This document shows, in pieces, positions 6,677 through 34,033 of a DNA stretch of 64,000 nucleotides; position 1 is the first letter of the stretch; the number at the start of each line of letters is the position of its first letter. Position numbers and translations under genes: made by a program. Under the pieces are notes generated by a model that did not search any database, had not been told where the DNA came from, and was given only the letters and a program-made list of their open reading frames with translations. The DNA comes from a virus: positions 1-64,000 of IMG/VR virus record IMGVR_UViG_3300033146_001382. One strand, given 5' to 3'.

Positions 6677-6931
6677 ATGACTAAAGAATTAGAAACTGAA
6701 CGTGCTGAGTATAACATGAAGTTGAATGATACATTAAGTTTTTCTACTGGATTAACTAAAATGATAATCATGCGTGTACCTGGTGGATGGATTTATACTA
6801 CTATACTAGAACCTGGAGCAAAGGATCATAAACCTATACCAATTGCTAGTAGTGTATTTGTGCCTATACATAAACCTAAAGCATCAGAATATGTGCCTAA
6901 TGATTTTAAAGTTGGTGAGGTAACTGAATGA
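6677..6931 (+). CDS. Conserved small phage protein, 84 aa
   Basis: First gene after the 6603 promoter, AAAGGAATTACAC before ATG. The central MIIMRVPGGWIYTT segment is a pattern I know from small phage proteins of unknown function. Probably a single compact beta domain with an acidic N-terminal extension. The stop overlaps the next start (ATGA), so the two are coupled. Confidence 0.65.
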   Translation: MTKELETERAEYNMKLNDTLSFSTGLTKMIIMRVPGGWIYTTILEPGAKDHKPIPIASSVFVPIHKPKASEYVPNDFKVGEVTE

Positions 6932-7002
6932 AAAAAGATAGTTTTCCAAATTTAGGGGATGACGTATTAAATTTAGCTTATTTCGAGGTACTTAATGACT
7001 GA
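6928..7002 (+). CDS. Mini-ORF of 24 aa coupled on both sides
   Basis: ATG overlaps the preceding stop (ATGA) and its own stop overlaps the next gene's start region. Sequence MKKDSFPNLGDDVLNLAYFEVLND. The tight double overlap suggests it is translated, perhaps only to carry ribosomes to the next gene; function unknown. Confidence 0.5.
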   Translation: MKKDSFPNLGDDVLNLAYFEVLND

Positions 7003-7186
7003 AATAATTAGACGTATAAAACAAGAATTGATGCGGAGAGAAGCAGGTTCTACTATTAGTTTAGAATTAAAGAATAATTCAGAAGCCGGAGTGAGTATAT
7101 TATGTGATTGTCTTTTAGCAAATGAGAATATAAAGGCTACATATATAAAACTAGATGGATCTATAAAGATATTTTGTCGTCTTTAA
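6995..7186 (+). CDS. Hypothetical protein, 63 aa
   Basis: Small alpha/beta-looking protein (ISLELKNNSEAGVSILCDCLLA then a C-terminal TYIKLDGSIKIFCRL strand pair). Coupled to the preceding mini-ORF; GAGG lies five bases before ATG. No family recognised. Confidence 0.6.
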   Translation: MTEIIRRIKQELMRREAGSTISLELKNNSEAGVSILCDCLLANENIKATYIKLDGSIKIFCRL

Positions 7187-7207
7187 TGATAAATAGGAGT
7201 TATAACT

Positions 7208-7399
7208 ATGAAATATGAAGTGCTAATAAACAAAGATGGCGACATAAGATGTGCTAGATGTAATAAAATAAGTGCTAGTTATATAAAAATAAATAATAAA
7301 GATGAATTAATAGATTATCTACGGCCAATAATCATATGTTCATCATGTTTAAGTGATTTTATAGATGAACTAGCCATTTCAGTGAGTAAAGATGATTAA
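7208..7399 (+). CDS. Small zinc-ribbon protein, 63 aa
   Basis: Two cysteine knuckles, CARC near residue 15 and CSSC near residue 48, fit a single zinc-binding ribbon flanked by a helix rich in Asp/Glu. TAGGAG precedes ATG. Overlaps the next gene by eight bases. Such small ribbons in phages often bind nucleic acid or RNA polymerase; no specific role is visible. Confidence 0.65.
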   Translation: MKYEVLINKDGDIRCARCNKISASYIKINNKDELIDYLRPIIICSSCLSDFIDELAISVSKDD

Positions 7400-8715: not shown

Positions 8716-11559
8716 ATGAAAACTATATTTAAAATAATTTTAATATTGGTTATACTCTCAACTTCTGTAATTAGCCATGGTGGTTCCAATAAAAAGAAAC
8801 TAATTGTAGGAGCGTTTAATTTCCCTCCTGCAATTTTTTTAAATAGTAACGGGGAGACAGAGGGATTTTTTGTTGACTTACTAAAAGAAATAGCTAAAGA
8901 AGAAGATTGGACACTTAGTTTTAAATTTACAACCTGGAGTAATGGGTTAGAGATGATGAAAAATGGTGATTTAGATATTTGGACTAGTACGGCATACACT
9001 GAAGTAAGAAACGCCTATATGGACTATAGTAACGAGCCTATACTAACAACCTGGGTAGAAATATTCTCCTCTACATCATCTAAAGTAAATAGTATATTTG
9101 ATCTAGAAAATAAAATAGTAGCTATAATGAAAAAAGATATTAATGGTATTATTTTTAAAGATTATATTAAAAAACTTAAAATAGACTGTAATATAAAATA
9201 CTACGAGGATTATTTTACAGTATTCCATGATTTAGAGACTGATTTAATTGATGTAGCAATTGCTAATAATATTGCTGGAGGATCTTATTTTACTAACCAT
9301 AAGGTACGTAGAACTAATATAGTATTAAGTCCATTTTTAATTTATTATACGGTACCAAAAAATAAGAATGCTTATGTAATAAAAGCTATAGACAAACATC
9401 TTAAAAAATGGAAATTAGATAGTAGTTCAATATATTATAAGTCGTTAGATTTTTGGTTACATAAAGAAGCTAATATTCAAAATGTAGTACCTAAGGCTAT
9501 TAAAATTATAGGAGTTATAGCAATAGTAGGATTTTTTATAATGGCTCTAATTATTTTAATATTTAAACATAAGGTTAATTCTAAATCTAGAGATGTACTA
9601 GAAGGTGAAGCTGATTATAAATCAACACTTGAAAATTTGTTAATAGGTATTATAGTGTATAAAAAACATTCTGGAATAATTATGTGTAATGAGGAAGCTG
9701 AAAAAATAATAGGATTAACATACTTACAAATAATAGAGAAGAATAGATCTGTACAAGATTGGGACTTTGTATCTGTTGATAAAACCAACTTAAAATTTGA
9801 AGACTATCCAATAAATAAAGTAATAGCCACCAACAATCCTTTAAAAGATACAGTATTAGGCATAAAAAATATTAATAAACATAGTATCACTTGGGTTTTA
9901 GTGAATGCTGTACCTATCTTTACTATGACTAATAAATTAAAAAAAATTATAGTTAATTTTATAGATATAACACATATTAAACAAACAGAAGAGCAATTAT
10001 TAAAAAATGATCAATTTTTACATACAACTAGTAAATTAGCTAAAGTAGGTGGCTGGGAATTAACTAAAGAAGGTGAAATGACTTGGTCAAAAGAACTATA
10101 CTACATACATGAAATACCTATGGGTGTACCTATTGATACTAAATTACTCATTCATAATTTATTTTTAGACCAAAAAGAGGTGATAGATGAAGCTTTTATT
10201 GAACTATTTAAAAATAAACAGAAGATATCCATCCAACTAAAATTAATAACTAAAGAAACAAAAACAGTTAAATGGCTTAGAGTAATAGCTATCCCTTTAT
10301 TAGACAAGAATGGGGAGGTAGAAAAAGTAATTGGGGCAACTCAAGATATCACTACTGTACATAACTTTGCTAAAGAAAAAGAGTTAATGACTAAGCAGTT
10401 ACAACAATCTCAAAAAATGGAGGCTATAGGTACACTCGCTGGTGGAATTGCACATGATTTTAATAATATACTGTCTGGTATATTTGGGTATACCCAGTTA
10501 GCCGAAATGAGTGTAGAAACCCCAGAAAAAGCCAGAAAACATTTAAAAATGGTTGTAGCTAGTGCTCAAAGAGCTGCAGAGTTAGTACAACAAATTTTAA
10601 CTTTTAGTAGAACACCAGATAAAGATCTAGCACCATTAAAAGTATATATAGTAATTAAAGAGGCTATGAAATTACTAAGAGCTTCAATACCTTCCTCAAT
10701 AAAGTTTACTGTAGACATCCAATCTAAAGGAAGTGTAAAGATGGACCCTACTAAAGTACACCAAATTATAATGAATCTAGTGACTAATGCATACCAAGCT
10801 ATCGGAGATGCTGAGCAGGGGGAAATAACTATAGTAGTAAGAGAAATATTTTTAAACAAAAAAGGAGTAATACCTAATGTAGGTCTTAAAAAAGGTGAGT
10901 ACTTAAAACTATCAGTAAGTGACACTGGTACAGGTATGACTAAAGAAGTACAAGAACGACTATTTGAACCATACTACACTACTAAAATAAAAGGGAAGGG
11001 TACAGGTTTGGGGCTGTCTATAGTGCATGGAATAGTTACCAATGCTGGAGGCCAAATTAATGTATATAGTGAATTAGGCATAGGTTCATCTTTTAATATT
11101 TATTTACCTCTCAGTGTAGAACTAACAGCCTATGAGAATAAAAAAGTAACTATCACTGATAAAGAGCTACTTAAAGGTACTGAAACCTTAATGATAGTAG
11201 ACGATGAGCCTATGGTAGTATCAGCTTTTCAAACTATATTAAATCAGTATGGCTATACTGTAGATATTTTCAAAAATGGAGCTCTAGGGTTAGAAGCATT
11301 CAAAAAATATCCAACCAGATATAATCTAATAGTTACAGACCAGACAATGCCAATTATGACTGGGGCAGAAATGTCAAAGCGTATTTTGGATATTAACTCT
11401 GATATGCCTATAGTTCTTTGTACAGGGCATACAGAACAAACTACAAAGGAGCAATGGAAGACTATAGGAATAAAAGGAATTCTAAATAAACCAGTACTAA
11501 CTAGTGATTTATTAATGTCTATTAGAACTATATTAAATAAAAAAGAGATAATTAAATGA
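8716..11559 (+). CDS. Hybrid sensor histidine kinase with periplasmic binding domain
   Basis: 947 residues with a complete signalling layout: signal peptide (1-20); bacterial solute-binding domain of family 3 (about 28-250, LIVGAFNFPPAIF); one membrane span (about 262-284); two PAS domains (about 300-420 and 432-548); DHp with phosphoacceptor H580 in GGIAHDFNNIL; ATPase with N687/N691, DTGTGM (736-741) and GTGLGLSIV (762-770); and a receiver with D829/D830, phosphoacceptor D875 and K925. All catalytic residues are present, so it should sense a periplasmic ligand and phosphorylate its own receiver. The stop overlaps the next phage gene (ATGA), which argues that it is a true phage gene. The DHp sequence resembles deltaproteobacterial kinases. 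Confidence 0.93.
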   Translation: MKTIFKIILILVILSTSVISHGGSNKKKLIVGAFNFPPAIFLNSNGETEGFFVDLLKEIAKEEDWTLSFKFTTWSNGLEMMKNGDLDIWTSTAYTEVRNAYMDYSNEPILTTWVEIFSSTSSKVNSIFDLENKIVAIMKKDINGIIFKDYIKKLKIDCNIKYYEDYFTVFHDLETDLIDVAIANNIAGGSYFTNHKVRRTNIVLSPFLIYYTVPKNKNAYVIKAIDKHLKKWKLDSSSIYYKSLDFWLHKEANIQNVVPKAIKIIGVIAIVGFFIMALIILIFKHKVNSKSRDVLEGEADYKSTLENLLIGIIVYKKHSGIIMCNEEAEKIIGLTYLQIIEKNRSVQDWDFVSVDKTNLKFEDYPINKVIATNNPLKDTVLGIKNINKHSITWVLVNAVPIFTMTNKLKKIIVNFIDITHIKQTEEQLLKNDQFLHTTSKLAKVGGWELTKEGEMTWSKELYYIHEIPMGVPIDTKLLIHNLFLDQKEVIDEAFIELFKNKQKISIQLKLITKETKTVKWLRVIAIPLLDKNGEVEKVIGATQDITTVHNFAKEKELMTKQLQQSQKMEAIGTLAGGIAHDFNNILSGIFGYTQLAEMSVETPEKARKHLKMVVASAQRAAELVQQILTFSRTPDKDLAPLKVYIVIKEAMKLLRASIPSSIKFTVDIQSKGSVKMDPTKVHQIIMNLVTNAYQAIGDAEQGEITIVVREIFLNKKGVIPNVGLKKGEYLKLSVSDTGTGMTKEVQERLFEPYYTTKIKGKGTGLGLSIVHGIVTNAGGQINVYSELGIGSSFNIYLPLSVELTAYENKKVTITDKELLKGTETLMIVDDEPMVVSAFQTILNQYGYTVDIFKNGALGLEAFKKYPTRYNLIVTDQTMPIMTGAEMSKRILDINSDMPIVLCTGHTEQTTKEQWKTIGIKGILNKPVLTSDLLMSIRTILNKKEIIK

Positions 11560-11984
11560 TCTATTTTAAATACTTATACTATATACTTAATCATAAGTGG
11601 GATGTAGGTATAGAGTGCATAAAACTTAAATTATATTGGCATGCTATAACTCATGATCTATCTAAATTTTATCCATCAGAGTTTAAAGCCTATGCTAAAC
11701 ATTTCTATGCTGGGCCTAATAGAAGCTTATTTGAAACAGCTTGGTGCTTACATCAACATAGAAACAAACATCATTGGGAATATTGGGTAAAAGCTGATGG
11801 ACACACTGTACCGATGCCAGAGCAGTATGTAAAACAAATGGTGGCAGACTGGAAAGGCATGGCTAGAAATAAAAAATTTGATCCGGCTGGTATTTTTTAC
11901 ATTAAAAATAAATATAAAATGAAGCTACATAAACAAACCAAAGCTTGCATATTAAAACTATTATATGAGGAAATTTATGACTAA
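11556..11984 (+). CDS. DUF5662 family protein
   Basis: 142 residues with the family's H-D-L-S-K-F motif near 32-37, a second histidine set in CLHQHRNKHHWEYW, then MPEQYVKQMVADW. The clustered His/Asp residues suggest a metal-dependent HD-like hydrolase fold, but no activity has been established that I know of. Start overlaps the kinase stop. Seen mainly in phages and bacteria as a stand-alone protein. Confidence 0.8.
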   Translation: MIYFKYLYYILNHKWDVGIECIKLKLYWHAITHDLSKFYPSEFKAYAKHFYAGPNRSLFETAWCLHQHRNKHHWEYWVKADGHTVPMPEQYVKQMVADWKGMARNKKFDPAGIFYIKNKYKMKLHKQTKACILKLLYEEIYD

Positions 11985-12441
11985 AAAAGAACAATTAATT
12001 ACGTGGTACCATACTATTGATTCTTTCAGTGATTTAGAAGACTATTATATTAAATTAATGAATTGTATTGATAATAAACTAGAGGACAACTATTGGACAA
12101 TTATACGTCTAAAAGATAATATACTTAATATACTATGGTATAGTCCTTGTAATTTTATAACTAATATAATTAAATATCGTAAGTTTTTATGGGAAGATAG
12201 ATGGTATGACTACTGGTTCTTATTAAATGCAATTCAAATAAAATTGGAACAAGATGCTAAGAACTATAGAAATAATGGCATTTGTACTTCAACTGATGAG
12301 GTGGCAAAAGAGATGGAAAATACTGTAGCACTTATTAAAAGGATAAATAATGATAATTATGATGATTTTAAACAATCTAAGGTAGATATTAAAAATTTAT
12401 TTGATTATATTGGAAATAATATTTTAAAATGGTGGGATTAA
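11977..12441 (+). CDS. Hypothetical protein, 154 aa
   Basis: Overlaps the DUF5662 gene by eight bases; ATG at 11977 is chosen because TGAGG lies six bases upstream (an ATG at 11965 would add MRKF). All-helical, aromatic-rich: WEDRWYDYWFLLNAIQIKLE is followed by a polar helix with conserved-looking V-A-K-E-M-E. I recall similar phage proteins with a W-D-x-x-Y-x-x-x-L-I-x-x-K-L pattern of unknown function. Confidence 0.65.
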   Translation: MTKKEQLITWYHTIDSFSDLEDYYIKLMNCIDNKLEDNYWTIIRLKDNILNILWYSPCNFITNIIKYRKFLWEDRWYDYWFLLNAIQIKLEQDAKNYRNNGICTSTDEVAKEMENTVALIKRINNDNYDDFKQSKVDIKNLFDYIGNNILKWWD

Positions 12442-12475: not shown

Positions 12476-12874
12476 ATGACTATAACATTTGATATAAATA
12501 AAAAAACTAATATTGTTACACATAAGTGGACTGGTAGTATAACAGGTAATTATATAAGTGGCAGACTAAAGGAACTTACTCAATTACCTAGTTGGACTTT
12601 TGGTATGTCGCATATAATAGATATTAAAAAAGCTAACTTTGAATTTATGAGTTCTAATGAATTAATACAAGTACTATCACATATGGAATCTAATACTTTA
12701 AGAAACTCCAAGGGGGAAATTATAGGTAAAATAGTACTACTAACTGATAGAAATAAAAGTAGTTTAGCACATGAACTAAAATTATTTAATTTATTTAAAT
12801 CTAAAACTAATAGAAAAATTAATTTATTTTATGATAAAAATACTTTATGTAAATGGTTAAACAGTAAATATTAA
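12476..12874 (+). CDS. STAS / SpoIIAA-like domain protein
   Basis: 132 residues in the alternating strand-helix order of SpoIIAA-like/STAS folds: N-terminal strands ITFDINKKTNIVTHKWTG, central HIIDIKKANF, IGKIVLLTDR, and a C-terminal NLFYDKNTLCKWL that matches the V-F-x-x-x-x-x-A-x-x-W-L end of bacterial relatives. Such domains act as anti-anti-sigma or signalling adaptors; no phosphorylatable serine can be assigned with certainty. Its place between a hybrid kinase and a PAS/DHp plus PilZ pair suggests a signalling role. AAGGAGATAAAC is upstream of ATG. Confidence 0.55.
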   Translation: MTITFDINKKTNIVTHKWTGSITGNYISGRLKELTQLPSWTFGMSHIIDIKKANFEFMSSNELIQVLSHMESNTLRNSKGEIIGKIVLLTDRNKSSLAHELKLFNLFKSKTNRKINLFYDKNTLCKWLNSKY

Positions 12875-12885
12875 GAGGAATAAAA

Positions 12886-13140
12886 ATGAATAATGAATTA
12901 AAGATTTCTACAAAAGATGTTAAAGTTAAATTAACACTAGTTAATAGACAGTCTATAACAGGGACTTTAAATATAATAGGTTATGATCGATTATCTGATT
13001 TTATAGAGATTGATAAGGGAAAACATTTAAAATTGTATAATGCCACCACTGAAGGTAATACACTTAATTTTATTTTAGTTACTAAAGTACATGTACTTTA
13101 TTATGAACTAGACATAACTAAAAATACCTATTACATGTAA
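12886..13140 (+). CDS. Small beta-rich protein, DUF6812-like
   Basis: 84 residues. VKVKLTLVNRQSITGTLNI then YDRLSDFIEI recalls small Sm-like bacterial proteins with a conserved R-L-S-D motif that often sit near signalling genes in deltaproteobacteria; I am not certain of the family. AGAGGAATAAAA precedes ATG, 11 bases after the STAS-like gene, so they are co-transcribed. Confidence 0.55.
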   Translation: MNNELKISTKDVKVKLTLVNRQSITGTLNIIGYDRLSDFIEIDKGKHLKLYNATTEGNTLNFILVTKVHVLYYELDITKNTYYM

Positions 13141-13328: not shown

Positions 13329-13532
13329 ATGGAAATAAATGTAATAAATTATATTAAAAATATGTTTGCTATGGAAACTACTCCAGTATGGAATGCAGGT
13401 TATGAAGGTACTATTTTTTATGATAAAAGTACTAGAAAATGGATTTCAGGTATTTATTCTAATTTAGCATTTAACATAATAAATGATGATTTAGATAATA
13501 CTTTTTATATAGACAATATGTATAAGATATAA
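13329..13532 (+). CDS. Small protein, 67 aa, paralogue of previous gene
   Basis: Shares the N-terminal amphipathic helix (NVINYIKNMF), the P-V-W turn, YEGTIFYD and W-I-S-G with the product at 13167, then adds an acidic C-terminal tail (NIINDDLDN). Starts three bases after the preceding stop. The product may act with the PAS/DHp protein encoded immediately downstream; nothing more specific can be said. Confidence 0.6.
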   Translation: MEINVINYIKNMFAMETTPVWNAGYEGTIFYDKSTRKWISGIYSNLAFNIINDDLDNTFYIDNMYKI

Positions 13533-13547
13533 AAAAAAGGATTCACT

Positions 13548-14201
13548 ATGCAAGTAAAAAATAAAACATTACAAAATTTACTATTAAATATAGTAGAGTA
13601 TAGTCATGATATTATATGGATTATAGACACTAATTTAATTGTAGTATACTTCAATAAAGCTATAGAAAAATACGGTTGGAAACGTGATAATTTAATAGGG
13701 AAAAATATATTAAATATAATGGATAAACAATCAAGTAATTTATTTAAAACTACCATAAATAATAAATTTACTACATGTAGTGAGAAAGCTGCAGTAGTCG
13801 AAACTAATAATTTTTTTAATGGTACTAAAAATATTTTTATTCTAGAGTCTACTTGTAAAGTATTACATAATAACTATGGTAAGATTATAGGACTATATGG
13901 TATCTCAAGAGATGTTACTTGTAATAAGCAATTGGAACAAATAACTTTAGAGAAAGAAAAGAAAAAAATGCTAGTTGAAGTATCCGGAGGTATTTGCCAC
14001 GAAGTAAGTCAACCTTTACAAGTCATGATGGGGTATATAGATCTACTGGATACTACAGAACTTAGTGTAGAAGGTAAAAAATATATAAACAACCTACATA
14101 CTAGTATGAATAGATTAAATACTTTAGTTAAAAAGATACAAAATATAAAAGAATATAAAACTAGGTCATATTTAACTACTAAAATAATTGACCTAGATTA
14201 G
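13548..14201 (+). CDS. PAS-DHp protein lacking a kinase ATPase domain
   Basis: 217 residues: a PAS domain (about 12-125, with HDIIWIIDTNLIVVYFN and the exit strand YGISRDVT) followed by a linker helix and a DHp/HisKA domain (about 137-205) with H151 in GGICHEVSQPLQVMMGY. The protein ends after the second DHp helix: there is no N-box, DxGxG or GxGLGL. The stop is clean and the next gene follows nine bases on, so this is not an obvious frameshift. It might accept phosphate from another kinase, dimerise with and block host kinases, or work as a phosphotransfer domain. Confidence 0.85.
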   Translation: MQVKNKTLQNLLLNIVEYSHDIIWIIDTNLIVVYFNKAIEKYGWKRDNLIGKNILNIMDKQSSNLFKTTINNKFTTCSEKAAVVETNNFFNGTKNIFILESTCKVLHNNYGKIIGLYGISRDVTCNKQLEQITLEKEKKKMLVEVSGGICHEVSQPLQVMMGYIDLLDTTELSVEGKKYINNLHTSMNRLNTLVKKIQNIKEYKTRSYLTTKIIDLD

Positions 14202-14210
14202 GAGTTATAG

Positions 14211-14459
14211 ATGAAAATAGAAAAACGAAAGTTTAAACGAGTTATATTTAAAAATTATGTAAATATTATAAATAATGGTAAAATACTGAAAGTTAAATCA
14301 ACTAATGTATCTAGACATGGTATGTTCTTAAATACCAACGTTTTTAATGTAGGGGATAAATTAGTTGCTATATTCTCAGTACTACTTAATATACCATTAA
14401 AAAAAGATATTATTGTAATTAGAAAAAATAATAATGGGATAGGTATCAAATTTATATAA
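14211..14459 (+). CDS. PilZ domain protein (probable c-di-GMP receptor)
   Basis: 82 residues, essentially one PilZ domain. The c-di-GMP signature is present: R6-x-x-x-R10 at the N-terminus (EKRKFKRVIF) and N32-x-S34-x-x-G37 (TNVSRHGMFL), followed by the barrel strands to KNNNGIGIKFI. Binding of c-di-GMP is the known role of intact PilZ motifs; the output is unknown as there is no effector domain. Starts nine bases after the PAS-DHp gene with AGGAGTTATAG upstream, so both come from one mRNA. A short TATAAC/GTTATA hairpin at 14455-14469 separates it from the converging leftward unit. Confidence 0.85.
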   Translation: MKIEKRKFKRVIFKNYVNIINNGKILKVKSTNVSRHGMFLNTNVFNVGDKLVAIFSVLLNIPLKKDIIVIRKNNNGIGIKFI

Positions 14460-14469
14460 CTTAGTTATA

Positions 14470-14655
14470 CTAACATTGTACTGTACATTTAGAACTAAAT
14501 AGTCTTTTAAAAAACATAATAAACCCTCTTTGTTGAGGAGGTGCAGTGTCCCACGGAGGATTCTCCCATTTTCCAGAGTTACAAATAAATACTGACTCAA
14601 TGGGTAAAGCAGTTGAGTTTGTTTTAGTTAGTGTTGGTTTTGTCCAATTTTTCAT
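14470..14655 (-). CDS. Small precursor-like peptide, 61 aa
   Basis: Leftward gene with AAGGAGATAAATT before ATG, downstream of the HPr-kinase-like gene. The N-terminus MKNWTKPTLTK resembles leader peptides of ribosomally made, modified peptides, many of which begin with K-x-W-x-K-P; the middle is Pro/Trp-rich (WENPPWDTAPPQQ) and the end has two cysteines (SSKCTVQC). In bacteria HprK-like kinases are found beside such precursors, for example phosphorylating lasso peptides. No other maturation enzyme is seen, so the pairing is a hypothesis. An overlapping ORF in another frame (14397-14600) has no ribosome binding site. Confidence 0.55.
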   Translation of the reverse strand: MKNWTKPTLTKTNSTALPIESVFICNSGKWENPPWDTAPPQQRGFIMFFKRLFSSKCTVQC

Positions 14656-14683: not shown

Positions 14684-15526
14684 TTAGTTTATTAAGTCAT
14701 TTTCTATATCATTTATTACATTGTAGGATAAATCAAAATATAAATTACTATACTTTATATCTTGTAATTTATATATTTTTTTTACATACTCTAGATCTAC
14801 ATTAAAATAGCTAACTATATTTTTATATAATTCTTCCACTTTATTTGGTGTTTCTATTATAGTTATATTAGTTGATTGATATAAAAAATAGAATTTATTT
14901 ATATATGCGGTTAAATTACTAGTTTTTTCATAAGATCCATGACACCAATGACCGAAAGCCTTATTACCTAATAAAATAGTACGGTCATCACATAATAACG
15001 ACCAGCCGCGTTGTTCTAATTTTTTAGACAAAGTAGATTTACCAGTACCTGAACTACCTAGTAAAGTTATAGCTTTATTATTTTTTATTAAACTATTACC
15101 ATGTAAAATTAAACCATTATTTTTAATTACATATGGATATAACATCACTTGATCAGAATAAAATACACATAAATTATTAATTAACTTTTTATTATAAATA
15201 CTTATTATATTTTTTGGAAGATATATCCGCCAATCAGTTAGCTCTTTATTAACAACAGCTTTTATATTATAAGGTTTATAAAAATATAATATATCTGTAT
15301 TACTTTCTTTTATAATCCAGGTAGAATTTTGAAATCTAGTTTTATATTTTTTAAAAAAATTAAATTTTAATTTAAATAGATTATGAGTTATTTTAATATC
15401 TATATCATTAGTATTATCTATATCTACTTTAAATTTATTAAATTGCTCATTTAAAACTAAACTACTTTTAATTGGCGTATTTAATTCTATTACACAGTTA
15501 CATGTTTTATAATAACTTTTATACAT
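14684..15526 (-). CDS. HPr kinase/phosphorylase-like ATPase
   Basis: 280 residues. The C-terminal half follows the HprK-like plan: LHGNSLI (141-147) before Walker A GSSGTGKST (157-165), then GWSLLCDD with D180-D181, then GHWCHGSYEKTS (192-203), the position where relatives read T-P-x-H-G-x. The N-terminal 110 residues are poorly conserved. HprK relatives phosphorylate serine on a protein or peptide partner. The gene runs against all neighbours, has its own promoter (15533-15560), and is followed by a small peptide gene. The -10 box ends seven bases before ATG and no ribosome binding site is visible, so the mRNA may be leaderless. Confidence 0.75.
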   Translation of the reverse strand: MYKSYYKTCNCVIELNTPIKSSLVLNEQFNKFKVDIDNTNDIDIKITHNLFKLKFNFFKKYKTRFQNSTWIIKESNTDILYFYKPYNIKAVVNKELTDWRIYLPKNIISIYNKKLINNLCVFYSDQVMLYPYVIKNNGLILHGNSLIKNNKAITLLGSSGTGKSTLSKKLEQRGWSLLCDDRTILLGNKAFGHWCHGSYEKTSNLTAYINKFYFLYQSTNITIIETPNKVEELYKNIVSYFNVDLEYVKKIYKLQDIKYSNLYFDLSYNVINDIENDLIN

Positions 15527-16757: not shown

Positions 16758-16943
16758 ATGAGAATTACTTATCAACAATTATTTACTAATATTAGATCTA
16801 GAATTAATATATTCACAAATCTACCTCATTATTATTCTAAATTATACAATAACTATAATAAACCATTAAATACAGAAGCTATACCTATAAAAATAGATAG
16901 AATAAGTACTAATATAGGTAGCACTATTAATATATATATTTAA
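16758..16943 (+). CDS. Hypothetical protein, 61 aa
   Basis: First ORF after the 16700 promoter, with AAAGGAAAATC before ATG. Polar, Ile/Asn/Tyr-rich, without cysteine or hydrophobic span; composition follows the AT-rich DNA. Could be a real small protein; no family recognised. Confidence 0.5.
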   Translation: MRITYQQLFTNIRSRINIFTNLPHYYSKLYNNYNKPLNTEAIPIKIDRISTNIGSTINIYI

Positions 16944-16957
16944 ATTAAGGAAAAAAA

Positions 16958-17296
16958 ATGAAAAATAAAAAAATGACTGACTTTATAATAGCTAATGAAG
17001 TATTAGATAATTTAAGTACGACCCTAAAAAACATGTTTGCTGACGATGTAACTTTTGGGTACGGAGAGGAATTTAAAAAATTAACTGAAAGAACTTATGA
17101 AGTTATGTGTCATATGGAAGCTGCAAATGAAGAGCTTGAAAAAGACCCAGGGATTTTACAAACTGCCCACAAATTTAGTATAACTACAGAATCTGTTATA
17201 GAAGATATATCTAAAATAATGATGTACTCTACTATAGCAAAACAAGGGTTGATAATAGAAACACTAACTTTGTTACTAGAGGGTAAAGATGAGTAA
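16958..17296 (+). CDS. Hypothetical helical protein, 112 aa
   Basis: Mostly helical and acidic (ANEVLDNLSTTLKNMF, EELEKDPGILQTAHKF, GLIIETLTLLLEGKDE). Overlaps the next gene by eight bases, so translation is coupled. No known domain seen. Confidence 0.65.
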   Translation: MKNKKMTDFIIANEVLDNLSTTLKNMFADDVTFGYGEEFKKLTERTYEVMCHMEAANEELEKDPGILQTAHKFSITTESVIEDISKIMMYSTIAKQGLIIETLTLLLEGKDE

Positions 17297-17723
17297 CCCT
17301 ATATGTTATGAGTGTTTAAAGTTAATGGTTAAAAAACATAGTATAATTTATATTAATAGACCAGGATTTGGAGAGTATAAGGTTCCAGGAGTATTGCATT
17401 TTTCATGTGAGAAATGCGGGACTAAGATAATTCCACCTATTGAGTCATTAAGAATTACCCAAAAAGGTATTAAATTACACTTATTAAAAGTACTTAAAGA
17501 ATTAAATACTGAGTCAGTATTAAATCTATGTCAGATATTAAAGTGTGAACTTAGTGAGTTAAATGAAGTACTAATACAATTAAATGATGAAAATATCATT
17601 TCATTGAGTGATACCGGTAGATTTCCTATGGTAAGTTTAAATACAATAGAACCTAAAATTAAAAAAGGATTTATCTCAAAATTAATTAATAGCTTATTTA
17701 AAGGTGAAGCTAGTGATATATAA
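17289..17723 (+). CDS. Zinc-finger plus winged-helix-like protein
   Basis: 144 residues. The N-terminus has a zinc site from CYEC (6-9) and CEKCG (about 40-44), reminiscent of MqsA-type ribbons; the middle (LLKVLKELNTESVLNLCQILKC and the following ELNEVLIQLNDENII) looks like a winged helix. A DNA- or RNA-binding regulator is plausible. Overlaps genes on both sides. Confidence 0.6.
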   Translation: MSNPICYECLKLMVKKHSIIYINRPGFGEYKVPGVLHFSCEKCGTKIIPPIESLRITQKGIKLHLLKVLKELNTESVLNLCQILKCELSELNEVLIQLNDENIISLSDTGRFPMVSLNTIEPKIKKGFISKLINSLFKGEASDI

Positions 17724-18294
17724 AAATTTTTGTATAATACCAGAAAATGCTATAGAAGAAGAATTTATAGAACATGAAATAAAATTTCTAATAGATGTGT
17801 CTATACATAAACAACATGAAATAAAAGACAAAGATACATATATTAAAATAGTTAAAAATAGATTTATAGATTGGTTAAATAAGGATTCAAAAATGAATGA
17901 AGTAAAACAAGTAATAGTAATACGTAAAGATTTAAAAATGCGTAAAGGTAAAGCTATAGCTCAAGGTGCTCACGCTGCTATGAAAGTAATACTAGACAAA
18001 ACTATAAAAACTGAAGATTCTACTAGTCAATATTTAAAATTAAACTTACTAAAAAATGACCCTATGTTTAAATGGCTTAATGGTAGTTTTACAAAAATAG
18101 TAGTAGGTGTAGATTCATTAGGGGAATTAGAAAAGATAGAGTCAAAAGCTATGGAACTAGGTATTATGTGTGCTAAAATAATAGATGAAGGTAGAACAGA
18201 ATTTAAGAATAAAAAAACTATTACAGCTTTAGCAGTAGGGCCTGAATGGTCGGAAAAATTAGACCCAATAACAAGCAATCTTAAGTTAATATAA
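17713..18294 (+). CDS. Peptidyl-tRNA hydrolase 2 (PTH2) family
   Basis: The C-terminal 130 residues match PTH2: VKQVIVIRKDLKMRKGKAIA then QGAHAAMKV, WLNGSFTKIVVGVDS, and a GRTEFKNKKTITALAVGPEW end. These include the basic K-M-R-K-G-K-x-x-A-Q-x-A-H core and the terminal T-x-L-A-x-G-P of the family. PTH2 releases peptides from peptidyl-tRNA and is typical of archaea and eukaryotes, less common in bacteria. The N-terminal 60 residues are an extra acidic segment. GTG at 17713 is preferred over 17704 because AAGGTGA lies five bases upstream. Confidence 0.88.
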   Translation: MIYKNFCIIPENAIEEEFIEHEIKFLIDVSIHKQHEIKDKDTYIKIVKNRFIDWLNKDSKMNEVKQVIVIRKDLKMRKGKAIAQGAHAAMKVILDKTIKTEDSTSQYLKLNLLKNDPMFKWLNGSFTKIVVGVDSLGELEKIESKAMELGIMCAKIIDEGRTEFKNKKTITALAVGPEWSEKLDPITSNLKLI

Positions 18295-23523: not shown

Positions 23524-24105
23524 ATGGTACCATACGTTATTGAAACAGGCAAGAATGACCAAGAAAAAGTATATGATATTTATTCAAGACTTCTTAAAGA
23601 CAGAATTATATTTATTAGAGGGGAATTTAACCCAGAATTAGCAGATGCTGTAACTGCACAATTACTGTTTCTAGAATCAGCTGACCCTGAGAAAGATATT
23701 TTTATGTATATAAACAGTCCTGGTGGCCATATAGACGCTATGTATAGTATTTATGATACTATGAACTACATAAAACCAGATATATGCACACTAGCCTATG
23801 GACAGGCTTGTTCTGCAGGTTCTTTTATTTTAGCTGCTGGTACTAAAGGAAAAAGATTTGCTTTACCTAATTGTGATATTATGATTCATGAGTTATCAGG
23901 CGGAAGCCAGGGTAAGTTTCATGATATGGAGATAAGTTTTAATAGAAGTAAATCTCTGTATGAGAAAATGGCTAAGCATTATGTAGATTTTACAGGACAG
24001 AAATTAGTTAAAATAAAAAAAGATATGAAAAGAGATCACTATATTAGTTCAGAAGATGCAGTAAAATACGGACTTATAGATAAAGTCCAAACTACAAGAG
24101 GCTAG
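23524..24105 (+). CDS. clpP: ClpP-like serine protease
   Basis: 193 residues covering the whole ClpP core. Catalytic triad in place: S97 in GQACSAGSF, H122 in IMIHELSGG, D171 in MKRDHYIS, with the MYINSPGGHIDAMYSIYD strand and the YGLID ending. The N-terminal loop for Clp ATPase docking is short. Phage ClpP proteins may process head proteins or use host ClpX/ClpA; here it lies far from the prohead protease, beside a coiled-coil and an actin-like gene. AAAGGAATTACAC precedes ATG. Confidence 0.93.
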   Translation: MVPYVIETGKNDQEKVYDIYSRLLKDRIIFIRGEFNPELADAVTAQLLFLESADPEKDIFMYINSPGGHIDAMYSIYDTMNYIKPDICTLAYGQACSAGSFILAAGTKGKRFALPNCDIMIHELSGGSQGKFHDMEISFNRSKSLYEKMAKHYVDFTGQKLVKIKKDMKRDHYISSEDAVKYGLIDKVQTTRG

Positions 24106-24721: not shown

Positions 24722-25888
24722 ATGACTGATAAAAATTTTAATAAAACTAGTGGGCCACAAGATAGAGTACCTAAGGTTAAGAATAAACATGAAAGTATGG
24801 ATGAATCTACAATTGAGAAGGAAAGACCAAAAATTGAAGACCCCATGCCTATTAAAGAAACTGTTGTAGAGTCAGAGCCTACAGTGGTAACACCAATACA
24901 TAAAGGGCTAGATATAGGAACTAATATGTTAGTAGCTAGCAGTATGGATGCTGATGGAGATACTTCATTTAAAATGCAACGTGATGCATTTTATAGGATA
25001 GAACCAAAGTCGGAAGTAAATAAAAATAGCATTAGAATGTCTCTAGATAAGCGACAAGCTAGTTACATTATTGATAATGATGAGTCATTCATAGTAGTAG
25101 GTGAAGATGCCCTAGAAATAGCCATAGAGAGGCATGATAAGGCGGAAAGACCTCTTCAGCGAGGAGTCATTTCCCCCCAAAATAAAAAATCACTTCCTAT
25201 ATTAAAACATATTGTTAAAGACTTGCTAGGTGAAGCAATTCCAGGCTCAAAGGTGGTATATTCTGTACCTGCTGCCCCAACCGATACTGATTTCGATATT
25301 GTATATCATACTGAAATAATGGGTATGTATTTAAAAGAGTTAGGTTACACATCTGCTCCTATAAATGAAGCCTTTGCTATTGCACTATCTGAATTGTTAG
25401 ATGAGGGGTTGACAGGTGTATGTTTATCTTATGGAGCTGGTATGACTAATGTAGCTGTAATTCATCAGGGTGACCCTTTAGTTGAGTTTAGTTTAACAAG
25501 GTCAGGAGATTACATAGATCAATCAGTAGGTAGAGCTTTAGATATATCACCGAGCCTGGTTCAGCAAGAGAAAGAAGCCGGTATAGATTTAAATTCACCT
25601 AATGGTGAGATAGTAGAGGCTATATCTGTATATTATAGTGCAGTAATTAAGTACACTCTAGAGAACATAGCATATGAATTGAGTAAGCGTAAAAAAGATC
25701 TACCTATTTTTAGAGAAGAAGTACCTTTAATAGTATCTGGTGGATTAACACTAGCTAATGGTTTTGTACCAAAGGTTCAGGATACTATAGTTAATTTAGA
25801 CTTCCCTTTAAAAATTGGTACAGTACGTAGAGCTGCAGAGCCTATGACTACAGTAGCACATGGTTGTCTTTTAGCAGCCCATCTTTAA
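24722..25888 (+). CDS. Actin/Hsp70-fold ATPase (ParM/MreB-like)
   Basis: 388 residues: a disordered, charged N-terminus (1-58) then an actin-fold ATPase with phosphate-1 loop KGLDIGTNML (61-70), phosphate-2 VCLSYGAGMTNVAV (233-246) and adenosine motif PLIVSGGLTLANG (335-347). Filament-forming members in plasmids and phages move or position DNA; others act as Hsp70-type chaperones. Sequence alone does not choose between these. GGAGCAAATT precedes ATG. Confidence 0.82.
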   Translation: MTDKNFNKTSGPQDRVPKVKNKHESMDESTIEKERPKIEDPMPIKETVVESEPTVVTPIHKGLDIGTNMLVASSMDADGDTSFKMQRDAFYRIEPKSEVNKNSIRMSLDKRQASYIIDNDESFIVVGEDALEIAIERHDKAERPLQRGVISPQNKKSLPILKHIVKDLLGEAIPGSKVVYSVPAAPTDTDFDIVYHTEIMGMYLKELGYTSAPINEAFAIALSELLDEGLTGVCLSYGAGMTNVAVIHQGDPLVEFSLTRSGDYIDQSVGRALDISPSLVQQEKEAGIDLNSPNGEIVEAISVYYSAVIKYTLENIAYELSKRKKDLPIFREEVPLIVSGGLTLANGFVPKVQDTIVNLDFPLKIGTVRRAAEPMTTVAHGCLLAAHL

Positions 25889-26564: not shown

Positions 26565-26780
26565 ATGAGTCACAGAGTTGAAGGTATTGTAAAATGGTTT
26601 AATGATTCAAGAGGTTATGGGTTTGTGTATGAAAGTGAAGATTTACCTGAAGAATTTTTTGTACACTTTAGTGCTATCGAGATGGATGGTTTTAAGACCC
26701 TTACAGAAGGTCAAAAAGTATCATTTACTTTAGTACAGACAGATAAAGGTGTTCAAGCATCTTCTGTCCAATTACTTTAG
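26565..26780 (+). CDS. Cold-shock (CspA-type) nucleic-acid-binding protein
   Basis: 71 residues, full cold-shock domain: GIVKWFNDSRGYGFVY (RNP1 is the K-G-F/Y-G-F region) and FFVHFSAIEMDGFKTL (RNP2 is the V-F-V-H region), ending KGVQASSVQLL. The RNP1 segment reads S-R-G-Y-G-F-V. Binds single-stranded RNA/DNA as a chaperone or antiterminator. AGGAGGAAGTAAAGTCA before ATG. Preceded by a long structured leader. Confidence 0.93.
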   Translation: MSHRVEGIVKWFNDSRGYGFVYESEDLPEEFFVHFSAIEMDGFKTLTEGQKVSFTLVQTDKGVQASSVQLL

Positions 26781-30458: not shown

Positions 30459-30986
30459 ATGGGCGGCCAAGGTAGTGGTAAACCAAAAAAACCAGTAATT
30501 AAAAAGTTAATAAAAGAGATAATTCCTACTAGTAAAATTTTCTCAGAAGATGAAGCTCAAATGTATGAAGATTTTATGGCAGCTTATTTAGCTGATTTTG
30601 ACGCTGATGAATTAATCTCTAGCGACATGGATGATATAATGAATTTAGCTCTTAATAAGGTATTATCGTTCAGACTGTTAAAAGAAAGTAAGGATGATAC
30701 TGATAGACAAATTGATATAGCAGCAACTCTTGAAAAATTAGATAAGCGTAATGAAAAAATAAAAGAAAGTTTATCTACAAGACGCCGTGATAGAATAAAC
30801 CCCAACGAATTAAAAGGATTTTCTATTGTTGATCTAGCTGTAGCGTTTGACCAAGAGGCTAAGGCAGCTCAAGCTAAGCGTATGGAAAAATTACGTAAAG
30901 AAGAGAGAGATATTTTAAAGAAAAGAGAATCATACGAAGGGAATAAGAATGACCTAGAAGAAACTAAACAGGATGACGAATATTAA
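30459..30986 (+). CDS. Putative terminase small subunit
   Basis: 175 residues starting MGGQGSGKPKKP, a typical opening of phage small-terminase proteins, then FSEDEAQMYEDFMAAYLADF and ISSDMDDIMNLALNKVL helices and a long charged coiled coil at the end. Its stop overlaps the large terminase ATG (TAATG). Small terminases recognise the packaging site and load the motor. Confidence 0.7.
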   Translation: MGGQGSGKPKKPVIKKLIKEIIPTSKIFSEDEAQMYEDFMAAYLADFDADELISSDMDDIMNLALNKVLSFRLLKESKDDTDRQIDIAATLEKLDKRNEKIKESLSTRRRDRINPNELKGFSIVDLAVAFDQEAKAAQAKRMEKLRKEERDILKKRESYEGNKNDLEETKQDDEY

Positions 30987-33900
30987 TGACTAAGAAGAGG
31001 CACAATTTAGATGATTTAATGGTGCAAGGTAAAGATCTAATTTCATTTTATAGGGCACATCCATGTATTGCTGCTTATGAACTACTTGGAGTTGATTTAG
31101 CCCCCATACAACGGCTTGTATTTAGGGATATGTGGTTTAAGAGTTATGTTATAGCAGTGTGCGGGCGTGGTTATGGAAAAAGTCAGTATACTGGATCACT
31201 CATACATACTAAATTGGATGGGTTAGTATATCTAAATGAGGTACTTCCACCTATTCCAGCCCATTTAAGTGATGGTGAAGAGGAAGTAATTGATTGGGTT
31301 GATGAGATTTATACATCTGAGGGGTTTAGAAATACTAAAAAATTATGCCTGGAAAAAGGTATTACTGGAAAAAAAATCATAACTCAAAACTATTATGAGA
31401 ACAAAGGAAGTACTCATCACCCATTGTTAGTGTTAAATTCTAAGTGTTGTTTTGAATATAAAAGTATGGATGAATTTATTCCAGGGGACAGGATATGTAT
31501 ACAAAGAGGACAAAACACTTTTGGTAATAATTTAATACCTTTAGATGAGGCTTACTTAATAGGTTTATTTATAGGTGGTAGTTTTATAGGTAGAAAAAAT
31601 TATATAAAGATTACCACCACAGATAATTACATTAAAGACTTTTGCATTAATTTCTGTATCAATAATAGTGTATCATATAGGGTTGACAAAGATAGATGTA
31701 CTGAGGATGGCTTTAGTATTTATTTTAAACAATTCGTATCATTTTTTGATAGACACAGTATTGATATGGAGACATCTTACACTAAATCAGTACCATACTC
31801 TGTGCGTACTTCTTCTAGAGCATCTCAAGTAGCATTTTTACAAGGGTACTTCGATACTAATAGTACTGTCTATAGAACTAATGGTAGTGTGTCATGTTAC
31901 TCTGTATCTAAGAAACTGCTAAAAGAAGTTCAAATGATGCTACTAAATTTTGGTATAATAGCTAGACTAAGAAAAAAGAAAACTAAGTCTAAATTTGGTA
32001 AAGTTTACTTATTGGATATGTGCTTAGATGACGCTTTAAAATTTAAAGAATTAATAGGGTTTAGATTAAAAAGAAAACAATTTATATTAAATAATTATTT
32101 TCATAAAAAAGAACTTAACGTAGATAAAACTACTATACCGTATGCATTACAATTGTGTTACTCCATAACACAATACTACCATAATAAATATATCACTTCT
32201 AAAAAACCCCCATTTAACATACGAATTACTAATAAAAAAGAGATAACTTACGATAGGTTAACTAGGTTTTTATCTCAATGTGAAGATATTGAACTTGCTG
32301 GATTTAGTCTTATAGAGGTAAGAGAGGACATTTATAAATTAAAAGAGATACTAAAATATAATTACTATTTTGATACTGTTATTTCAATAGATGACTGGAA
32401 AGGTGATTGTTACGATTTTGAAATGAATATGGAAACTGATGTTGAGCCAAATTATTTTTCTAATGGGTTTATAGCCCATAATACTTTTATGTTAGGTACT
32501 TTAGCAGCATTAAGTTGTTTACTATACCCAGGCTATAGAGTAGGTCTAATTGGCCCAGTCTTTAGACAATCAAAAATGATTTTTTCAGAAGTTGAAAAAT
32601 TGTATGATCAGTCACCCATTCTACGAGAAGCTACTGCTAAAAAACCTACTAGGGGGTCTGATACATGTTATTTAAAATTTAAATCTGTAGCAGGCAAGAC
32701 TCCATCATATATCGAAGGACTTCCTCTAGGAGATGGTAGTAAGATTCGTGGATCTAGATTTTATTTAATACTTATAGATGAGTTGGCACAAATACCAGAT
32801 CAAACACTTGATATGGTTGTACGTCCAATGGGGGCTACAGCCTTAGCACCAATGGAGAGAGTTAGACGTCTAGAAGAGCAAACAAGGCTAATAAAAGCAG
32901 GACTAGCTGTAGAAGAAGACTTCCAAGAAGAGAAAGTAAATAAGATGGTTATGACTTCTTCAGGTTACTATAAGTTTAACCATATGTGGCGAAGAATGAA
33001 GGATCATTGGAAAATGATGGTAGAGTATGAGGCTAAGGGTGAGGAATGCCCTTACTCTGTTTGGCAAGTCCCTTATTGGGATCTACCTGATGGGTTTTTA
33101 GATAAAGCTAATATTGCTGAAGCTAAACGTATAATGTCGTCACATGAGTACAGTATGGAGTATGAAGCCGCTATGGTGTCCGATTCAGAAGGTTTTTTTA
33201 AAGCTTCTTTATTAGAAGAATGTACTATAGACTCTGATTTTACTACTCTTCATAAAGGTGATCCAAATAAGAGTTATGTAATTGGTGTAGACCCTAATCA
33301 AGGGGGATCAGCTAGTTGTGGTGTTATAGTTACTGAAATGGGTAAACCTAACAAAATTGTAAGTGTGTTAGAATTGATGTCAAAGACTACTCAGGGATTG
33401 ACACAAGCAGTGCAATCTTTATGTGATCAGTATAAAGTAATAAGAATATTTATGGATAGAGGTGGTGGAGGTAAAGCCATCATGGATCTACTAGAAGAAG
33501 GTTATGGTAATGTTGAACCTATTATAGATAGAGGTAATCCTGATAATATTCATAAAGATGGTAGACATATTTTAGAAATGGTTAATTTTAATCCTTCTTG
33601 GATTTCTGATGCCAATTTTACTACTAAATCTATGTTTGAAGATAAGAGTTTAAGATTTCCAGAATTAACTGTGAGCGCCAACGATTTAATGGCAAGGACA
33701 TATGAGTCTATAACTACATTAAAATCTCAATTATTAAGTATAGTTGTAACACAAACTTCTACTGGCATCTTACATTTTGATACTCCCACTAAAAGTATGA
33801 ATAAGGATTTATATTCTGCTTTGATACTTGCAGCACATGGTATTAGAATGGTGGAAAGGGAACTAGAAGAAGGGGAAGAACCCATACTACATAATGATAG

Positions 33901-34033
33901 TGGTTTATTTAGAAGTCGTACTGGTAGTCAGGGGTTTAATTACTTAGGTTCGGCTGGTAATATGGGCCTAGGGGCACCACCTATAGGTAGATTTGGTTTG
34001 GGTTCTGCCGTGTTACATAGGAAGAAAAAGTAA
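30986..34033 (+). CDS. terL: Terminase large subunit interrupted by an intein
   Basis: 1015-residue precursor; 582 residues after removal of the intein (residues 67-499). Extein motifs: Walker A GRGYGKS|T, where the final Thr is supplied after the intein; Walker B LILIDELAQ; nuclease acids in VIGVDPNQGG, RIFMDRGGGG and HFDTPTKSMNKD. It powers DNA translocation into the prohead and cuts concatemers. Because the intein splits the P-loop itself, the ATPase should be inactive until splicing. Followed by a strong hairpin at 34079. Confidence 0.95.
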   Translation: MTKKRHNLDDLMVQGKDLISFYRAHPCIAAYELLGVDLAPIQRLVFRDMWFKSYVIAVCGRGYGKSQYTGSLIHTKLDGLVYLNEVLPPIPAHLSDGEEEVIDWVDEIYTSEGFRNTKKLCLEKGITGKKIITQNYYENKGSTHHPLLVLNSKCCFEYKSMDEFIPGDRICIQRGQNTFGNNLIPLDEAYLIGLFIGGSFIGRKNYIKITTTDNYIKDFCINFCINNSVSYRVDKDRCTEDGFSIYFKQFVSFFDRHSIDMETSYTKSVPYSVRTSSRASQVAFLQGYFDTNSTVYRTNGSVSCYSVSKKLLKEVQMMLLNFGIIARLRKKKTKSKFGKVYLLDMCLDDALKFKELIGFRLKRKQFILNNYFHKKELNVDKTTIPYALQLCYSITQYYHNKYITSKKPPFNIRITNKKEITYDRLTRFLSQCEDIELAGFSLIEVREDIYKLKEILKYNYYFDTVISIDDWKGDCYDFEMNMETDVEPNYFSNGFIAHNTFMLGTLAALSCLLYPGYRVGLIGPVFRQSKMIFSEVEKLYDQSPILREATAKKPTRGSDTCYLKFKSVAGKTPSYIEGLPLGDGSKIRGSRFYLILIDELAQIPDQTLDMVVRPMGATALAPMERVRRLEEQTRLIKAGLAVEEDFQEEKVNKMVMTSSGYYKFNHMWRRMKDHWKMMVEYEAKGEECPYSVWQVPYWDLPDGFLDKANIAEAKRIMSSHEYSMEYEAAMVSDSEGFFKASLLEECTIDSDFTTLHKGDPNKSYVIGVDPNQGGSASCGVIVTEMGKPNKIVSVLELMSKTTQGLTQAVQSLCDQYKVIRIFMDRGGGGKAIMDLLEEGYGNVEPIIDRGNPDNIHKDGRHILEMVNFNPSWISDANFTTKSMFEDKSLRFPELTVSANDLMARTYESITTLKSQLLSIVVTQTSTGILHFDTPTKSMNKDLYSALILAAHGIRMVERELEEGEEPILHNDSGLFRSRTGSQGFNYLGSAGNMGLGAPPIGRFGLGSAVLHRKKK
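31184..32482 (+). other. Intein with LAGLIDADG endonuclease in TerL Walker A
   Basis: 433 residues in frame. It begins with Gln directly after GRGYGKS (Q-Y-T-G-S-L-I-H-T), has a B-block-like GSTHHPLLVL, and ends FSNGFIAHN followed by Thr as the +1 nucleophile. Two LAGLIDADG helices are visible: YLIGLFIGGSF and VAFLQGYFDTNSTV, each followed by typical beta segments, so the homing nuclease is probably intact. Gln at position 1 instead of Cys or Ser means a non-standard first splicing step. Confidence 0.9.

Follow-up and report, generated by a model that had tools for sequence, protein, structure and literature searches.

A putative hybrid histidine kinase is reportedly encoded by the algal virus EsV-1, according to a title in the reference list of PMC6163359. 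In phages, the Clostridium difficile phage phiCDHM1 carries an AgrC histidine kinase without a phage response regulator, going by the part of its report that was seen (PMC3901668), and a partially seen study of uncultivated pelagiphages places histidine kinases in curli (type VIII secretion system, T8SS) clusters (PMC9599517). A PAS-HisKA-HATPase-REC protein was found in the 735-kb uncultured phage LR756501 (L180), at least two PAS-hybrid kinases (L050, L051) plus a stand-alone receiver (L048) in the 416,714-bp IMG/VR record IMGVR_UViG_3300031088_000008 (G002), and non-hybrid kinases in MW495066 and MW462191. A jumbo-phage survey, as far as it was seen, brings up two-component kinases solely because its divergent receiver domain never occurs with them (PMC7824862). 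Because phage histidine kinases, even hybrid ones, have these precedents, a phage kinase alone is not new. Here a hybrid kinase gene and its neighbours are analysed in bases 1-64,000 (the window) of the IMG/VR record IMGVR_UViG_3300033146_001382 (G000; 189,441 bases in full). An earlier note on this DNA had held such kinases to be very rare in phages; given LR756501, the pelagiphage curli clusters and phiCDHM1 AgrC, this was overstated.

Among the examples cited, previously reported phage histidine kinases stand alone or beside quorum-sensing or curli genes. What is new here is the company of the kinase, which is conserved in both of two phages: a PAS-HisKA protein lacking the catalytic ATP-binding (CA) domain, a PilZ protein encoded directly behind it, and a protein of STAS fold. 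As with phiCDHM1 AgrC, no cognate response regulator adjoins the kinase; however, AgrC is a quorum-sensing kinase found with AgrB/AgrD and, in what was seen of the paper, no receiver is reported for it (PMC3901668), whereas here a hybrid kinase with a solute-binding protein (SBP) sensor is accompanied by a CA-less DHp protein. The pelagiphage kinases likewise sit among cargo genes connected with surface behaviour, but no curli genes were seen in the window phage, and the part of the pelagiphage study that was seen mentions neither a response regulator nor a partner of the PilZ or DHp-only kind (PMC9599517). The hybrid kinases of LR756501 and G002 have no SBP sensor among their Pfam matches, are about 24-32% identical in the core and fall in different clades.

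Among bacterial proteins, the kinase shares the domain order sensor-PAS-HisKA-HATPase-REC with hybrid HisKA-type kinases of the Thermodesulfobacteriota, and its core nests among them; unlike these, it is phage-encoded and belongs to a separate clade (100/100) on a long stem. Its sensor is a periplasmic family-3 solute-binding domain, as in the SBP_bac_3 sensor kinases (PDB 3h7m), although the usual ligand-contacting aspartate is Asn184 in both phages. The CA-less protein invites comparison with Spo0B, a DHp-type phosphotransferase, and with ChpT, both of which keep a degenerate CA-like second domain. Like them it has DHp helices with a conserved histidine, for which a relay role is proposed; unlike them it has no CA-like second domain and adds a PAS domain. 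ChpT is itself said to resemble histidine kinases, in the portion of the paper seen (PMC3433190). Searches of open-licence PubMed Central turned up no paper recognisable as describing a phosphorelay of a phage in which a DHp protein lacks the CA domain.

The hybrid kinase and its counterpart in a second phage

To judge from its domains and residues, the open reading frame (ORF) at 8716-11559 is an intact transmembrane hybrid histidine kinase of the HisKA class, and autophosphorylation is predicted (Table 1). The earlier note had called it full length, and this is borne out by the 947-residue ORF, by domains over the Pfam cut-off and by the presence of every named residue at its given position. 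The DHp and CA parts contain H580, N691, DTGTGM at 736 and GTGLGLS from 762, and the receiver has the acidic pair D829/D830, D875, T903 and K925. Hydropathy shows an N-terminal stretch of hydrophobic residues and predicts a single additional membrane segment, around residues 256-288. Thus the solute-binding domain that had been claimed was recovered over the cut-off, while the signal peptide claimed with it comes down to the N-terminal stretch seen by hydropathy. The stop codon does overlap the start of the next gene, in an ATGA at 11556-11559. The two PAS regions in the kinase, and the signalling genes 2-3 kb downstream, go beyond what that note described.

The SBP_bac_3 domain resembles amino-acid-binding proteins as well as PDB 3h7m ("Sensor protein"). 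By alignment and residue check, R98 is kept, at the position of the arginine that binds the ligand carboxylate in this family, and in both phages Asn184 occupies the position of the aspartate that usually binds the ligand amino group. Since the arginine is kept and the aspartate is not, a carboxylate or an unusual amino compound would be a reasonable guess for the ligand.

A second full-length relative of the kinase was found in IMGVR_UViG_3300022188_000007 (L010, G001), an incomplete contig of 144,485 bp from another metagenome. The two kinases are 73% identical (694 of 947 aligned residues), and the gene order kinase, DUF5662 gene, gene at 11965, STAS-fold gene, PAS-HisKA gene, PilZ gene is common to both contigs; the upstream flank at 6677-7399, including 6713-7372, is also conserved between them. 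Of the residues checked in the catalytic and receiver parts, all but I922 (V922 in L010) agree between the two phages. The DHp is the most conserved part of the kinase (81 of 90 residues, 551-640).

For this pair, the ratio of non-synonymous to synonymous substitution (dN/dS, Nei-Gojobori) was 0.113 for the kinase, with synonymous sites near saturation (pS 0.65), 0.197 for the PAS-HisKA protein and 0.243 for the PilZ protein. Within the kinase, pN/pS was 0.10 in the DHp, 0.165 in the receiver and 0.232 in the SBP domain; the DHp is the most constrained part and the membrane and signal parts are the least. The kinase, the PAS-HisKA protein and the PilZ protein are under purifying selection. The low dN/dS and the identity of the key residues therefore indicate that selection has maintained the function of these proteins ever since the two phages diverged, and a decayed kinase is ruled out by dN/dS. 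With the same genes present and functionally maintained in two phages, it seems that some phages equip the bacteria they infect with an environmental sensor of their own.

Table 1. Positions of the kinase, its domains and other features; positions are those of the window unless the contig is named.
Feature	Position	Strand	Basis
Hybrid histidine kinase, 947 aa, ATG start	8716..11559	+	ORF call, Pfam, 73% identical homologue P0004 in L010
Periplasmic SBP_bac_3 sensor domain, residues 35-235	8818..9420	+	Pfam, over cut-off; PDB relatives
Predicted transmembrane segment, about residues 256-288	9481..9579	+	Hydropathy
PAS domain (PAS_9, PF13426), residues 311-419	9646..9972	+	Pfam, over cut-off
Second PAS region (PAS_3, PF08447), residues 485-541	10168..10338	+	Pfam, below cut-off
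DHp (HisKA, residues 572-632) with H580	10429..10611	+	Pfam, over cut-off
Catalytic ATP-binding domain, HATPase_c, residues 677-800	10744..11115	+	Pfam, over cut-off
Receiver domain, Response_reg 6e-21, residues 826-936	11191..11523	+	Pfam, over cut-off
DUF5662 gene (PF18907 3.9e-29), start overlaps kinase stop	11556..11984	+	71% identical in L010
Conserved gene	11965..12441	+	57% identical in L010
STAS/SpoIIAA-fold protein	12476..12874	+	Predicted structure and Foldseek; 58% identical in L010
DUF6812-like small protein	12886..13140	+	Weak, below cut-off
PAS-HisKA protein, 217 aa, no HATPase_c, phospho-acceptor candidate H151	13548..14201	+	Pfam; homologue P0005 57%
PilZ protein, PF07238 1.8e-07	14211..14459	+	Homologue P0006 in L010
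Large terminase with intein insertion, LAGLIDADG domain inside intein	30986-34033		
7756-aa single ORF, tape-measure-sized	contig 64290-87560, starts beyond window		Function inferred from size
715-aa protein, repeated PAS domains, no kinase	contig 180146-182293, outside window		
Stand-alone receiver, D10, D11, D54, T84, K106	contig 184468-184851, outside window		

The ATPase-less protein and a possible relay

The PAS-HisKA proteins of the two phages match HisKA at 1.2e-08 and 3.3e-06, and H151 is conserved in both. This histidine sits in GICHEVSQPL, with the stop 66 residues further on, and neither the protein nor any of the three frames beyond its stop has a HATPase match. When both phage copies were combined into a profile, 62 of 198 Thermodesulfobacteriota genomes had matches to it. 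Eight of the 30 bacterial relatives that were fetched are CA-less, 21 are full-length-type kinases with 145-460 residues past the match, as in full kinases, and one (L197) has no usable protein. The eight stop no more than 18 residues past the match and share with the phage protein a Tyr-rich, IIDI-type tail (Tyr ... Lys/Arg-x-Tyr ... IIDI), although they are not all independent, since L216 and L219 are near-identical. Because these bacterial relatives end in the same way, and no ATPase lies in the frames behind, a frameshifted kinase was rejected; by these comparisons the phage protein is a member of a real, apparently unnamed bacterial CA-less class. Such a class would consist of phosphotransfer or phosphatase proteins which domain searches would label as histidine-kinase fragments.

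The protein does not match HPt (PF01627). The HPt-like motif H-x-[LIVMF]-[KR]-G was absent from the small ORFs of the contig and matched once, in an ORF of 847 residues; as there is no small HPt-like ORF on the contig, the PAS-HisKA protein is the phage's own remaining relay candidate. The PilZ gene starts 9 bases past the PAS-HisKA stop, and its product has the motifs RxxxR and NxSxxG ((D/N)xSxxG) in both phages; binding of cyclic di-GMP (c-di-GMP) is predicted. GGDEF was found in none of the four records searched, and c-di-GMP would therefore come from the host.

We propose, at a probability of about 0.5, that the phage expresses a working membrane sensor kinase in its host and that the ATPase-less protein carries the signal on to a receiver of either the phage or the host. 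The periplasmic SBP_bac_3 domain would bind a small ligand, which may be a carboxylate and not one of the standard amino acids, with a second input from the PAS regions; H580 would be autophosphorylated by the CA domain, and the phosphate would then move from H580 to D875 within the same kinase. Since no output domain lies behind the kinase receiver, D875 would hand the phosphate to H151 of the PAS-HisKA protein encoded nearby, or to a counterpart in the host, and the PAS-HisKA protein would in turn pass it to, or strip it from, a host or phage receiver. The earlier note was fair in holding that the phosphate has to go to some other protein, and a candidate acceptor is encoded at 13548-14201. 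That a PilZ gene comes immediately after the PAS-HisKA gene points to an output linked to host behaviour governed by c-di-GMP (surface, motility, adhesion) during infection. That all of this forms a multistep phosphorelay of the phage's own, made up of the SBP-hybrid kinase, a PAS-HisKA phosphotransferase and a single-domain receiver with a c-di-GMP-binding PilZ output, is rather unlikely.

The residue at K-3 is not aromatic in the kinase receiver (I922, or V922 in L010), nor is it in the stand-alone receiver (V103). According to the part of a study that was seen, this position varies in intermediate receivers of the CckA type, while terminal receivers of the CtrA type always have Tyr there (PMC9981736); by analogy, the non-aromatic residue would fit relay use, if weakly.

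Several observations weigh against a signal leaving through the ATPase-less protein. The structure prediction for the PAS-HisKA protein was of low confidence (pLDDT 32), its gene lies about 2 kb from the kinase gene and is not adjacent to it, and the module is known from two contigs only. A PilZ or receiver motif gene was found within the 1-1.5 kb flanks of none of the eight CA-less bacterial relatives; since these short flanks contain no PilZ motif gene, the PAS-HisKA/PilZ pairing may be the phage's own. In G001, which bears the kinase and is incomplete, the only receiver found was that of the kinase itself. Furthermore, receivers 43-44% identical to the stand-alone one immediately follow the terminase gene in L184-L188 (G004, G005, G006, G443, G444); HisKA was found in none of the three of these relatives searched for it (G006, G443, G444), and the kinase (P0001) had no match in G004 or G005. 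That relatives without the kinase carry such a receiver too argues against it as a dedicated partner of the kinase, and it probably answers to host kinases as well.

Alternatively, the kinase may be active but feed host HPt proteins and response regulators only, the PAS-HisKA and PilZ proteins being separate regulators of a cargo region; this is a real possibility, if a doubtful one. phiCDHM1 AgrC, in the portion of its report seen, is a precedent here, as that phage has the kinase but no response regulator of its own (PMC3901668). Kinase candidates number in the tens to hundreds in Thermodesulfobacteriota genomes, and the kinase and PAS-HisKA genes are apart, with a third gene there that varies from a 67-residue stub in the window to 1033 residues in L010. 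However, of 18 records searched for HisKA, two have the kinase together with the PAS-HisKA protein and the remaining 16 have neither; both proteins are, moreover, under purifying selection.

The PAS-HisKA protein could also be a phosphatase or decoy, taking phosphate away from a regulator of the host or from the kinase receiver, rather than a step in a relay. Isolated DHp domains can dephosphorylate regulators, as that of EnvZ does. H151-E152 and Q155 are present and the CA domain is absent, so that autophosphorylation would be impossible; but the sequence does not separate a phosphatase from a phosphotransferase, and the acceptor histidine is kept in both phages and in the eight CA-less bacterial relatives. 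This explanation is considered improbable.

Origin of the kinase and the phage that carries it

A phylogeny of the kinase core against bacterial kinases had been suggested as a check in the earlier note. From 83 loci given, 60 with a match of at least about 210 residues were retained and 23 dropped; with the two phages this gave a tree of 62 rows, which has several long branches. The phage kinases form a clade of their own at 100/100, whose stem is 1.06 changes per site long, nested inside the hybrid kinases of the Thermodesulfobacteriota (Desulfobacterota), the phylum of an uncultured Desulfuromonadales; the inner branch that joins them to L157 is weak (83/19). Bacterial kinase cores are at most 47% identical to the phage kinase (L158), L149 matches its residues 33-943 at 32%, and the best plasmid match, in Desulforapulum autotrophicum, is at 37%; no near-identical copy was found among 395 Thermodesulfobacteriota genomes. 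The GC content at third codon positions (GC3) of the kinase is 0.191, against 0.203 +/- 0.026 over 54 long contig ORFs, and five donor-type bacterial loci are at 49-56% GC. The kinase is probably an old acquisition from a Thermodesulfobacteriota host, and recent capture is ruled out by the phage-like composition and the long stem. The bacterial comparison was deep for this phylum and elsewhere consisted of 35 loci from one pattern scan; we infer the donor phylum, since other phyla were searched far less deeply.

From the 80 head-protein relatives kept, the 43 records of at least 18 kb were examined, and the kinase (P0001) matched in one of them (G001); as most of these records are fragments, absence from the rest is weak evidence. 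HisKA was found in two of 18 records searched (G000 and G001), twice in each, as the kinase and the PAS-HisKA protein; it was not found in the other 16, which include two larger than the window's record (228 and 238 kb). The kinase is thus accessory, not core, in this phage family. When viral records were scanned with the alignments of the kinase, the PAS-HisKA protein and the STAS protein, the second contig was the only match beyond the window. In INPHARED, the kinase has matches in 56 of 50,697 records, with none reaching 80% coverage; in our judgement, some of the matches listed are clearly of bacterial origin or are short contigs without annotation.

This accessory distribution (one record in 43), together with a core that belongs to host-type kinases, might suggest a recently captured host kinase of no use to the phage; such passive cargo is, however, very improbable given the dN/dS of 0.113 at pS 0.65, a GC3 of 0.191 that is phage-like against the 49-56% GC of the bacterial loci, and the phage-only clade with its stem of 1.06. 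An assembly chimera or bacterial contamination is hardly credible: the record is metagenome-derived and its first 2 kb have a GC of 0.42-0.45, but the window kinase has phage composition and an independent 144-kb contig holds the kinase with the same conserved genes on both sides, which refutes the junction artefact that the earlier note had worried about.

The kinase is phage-encoded, as had been claimed: a terminase and, by PHROGs, portal and major head proteins are on its record, and the gene and its flanks recur in an independent phage contig. The head protein has 191 confirmed IMG/VR relatives, the best 80 of the 191 being 80-98% identical, and the family is therefore widespread. In INPHARED, the head protein is matched only by that of Bacillus phage G, at 22% (2 of 50,697 records, one phage twice). 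If the 7756-residue ORF is a tape measure, an extremely long tail is implied. A prophage was rejected, the tyrosine integrase family being found in none of four records in a search of which serine recombinases were not part; so was membership of a defence system, for which PADLOC returned weak receiver-type matches only. Over bases 1-2400, GC is 0.42-0.45 in the first 2 kb against 0.33 contig-wide, and the left-end genes are on the minus strand.

Among the neighbouring genes, the product of 12476-12874 gave ten Foldseek matches in PDB at E<=0.001, all ten to STAS or anti-sigma-antagonist domains, the best of five models having pLDDT 66 and the other four 36-40. A SpoIIAA-type phospho-serine switch was rejected here, as Ser-Ser 59-60 is not kept in L010 (two-row alignment, by eye). 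The 67-residue stub lies at 13329-13532; the 1033-residue protein there in L010 (12871-15972) is adhesin-like, with F5/8 type C matches, and is partly similar to contig ORF 138168-140021. Directly behind the PilZ gene, L010 encodes a caspase-domain protein (16939-17802; Peptidase_C14, 5.1e-35), which is not at that place in the window. There, a gene for a peptide of 61-63 residues (14470-14655, minus strand) adjoins one for an HprK-related kinase (14684-15526, minus strand), with weak TIGR04352/Hpr_kinase_C matches; the pair also occurs in L010 (2830-3021 and 3018-3866, both minus strand), at a different position relative to the hybrid kinase, and looks like a modified-peptide (RiPP-like) pair. 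The 715-residue multi-PAS protein had no relatives in the viral scan and no match in G001 or G002. Elsewhere the window encodes a Volactin-family actin-like protein (24722-25888; PF25216, 1.7e-60), ClpP (23524-24105), a cold-shock protein (26565-26780) and the peptidyl-tRNA hydrolase PTH2 (17704-18294), and at about 150,500-164,000 of the contig a run of genes resembling glycosyltransferases, an aminotransferase and methyltransferases (by eye) forms a putative sugar/surface-glycan cluster.

If the phage does have a multistep phosphorelay of its own with a PilZ output, the phage itself would read the outside of its host and retune the surface behaviour of that host or the course of infection. 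The conserved module of hybrid kinase, ATPase-less acceptor and PilZ protein makes phage sensing of the infected cell's environment, and the response to it, directly testable.

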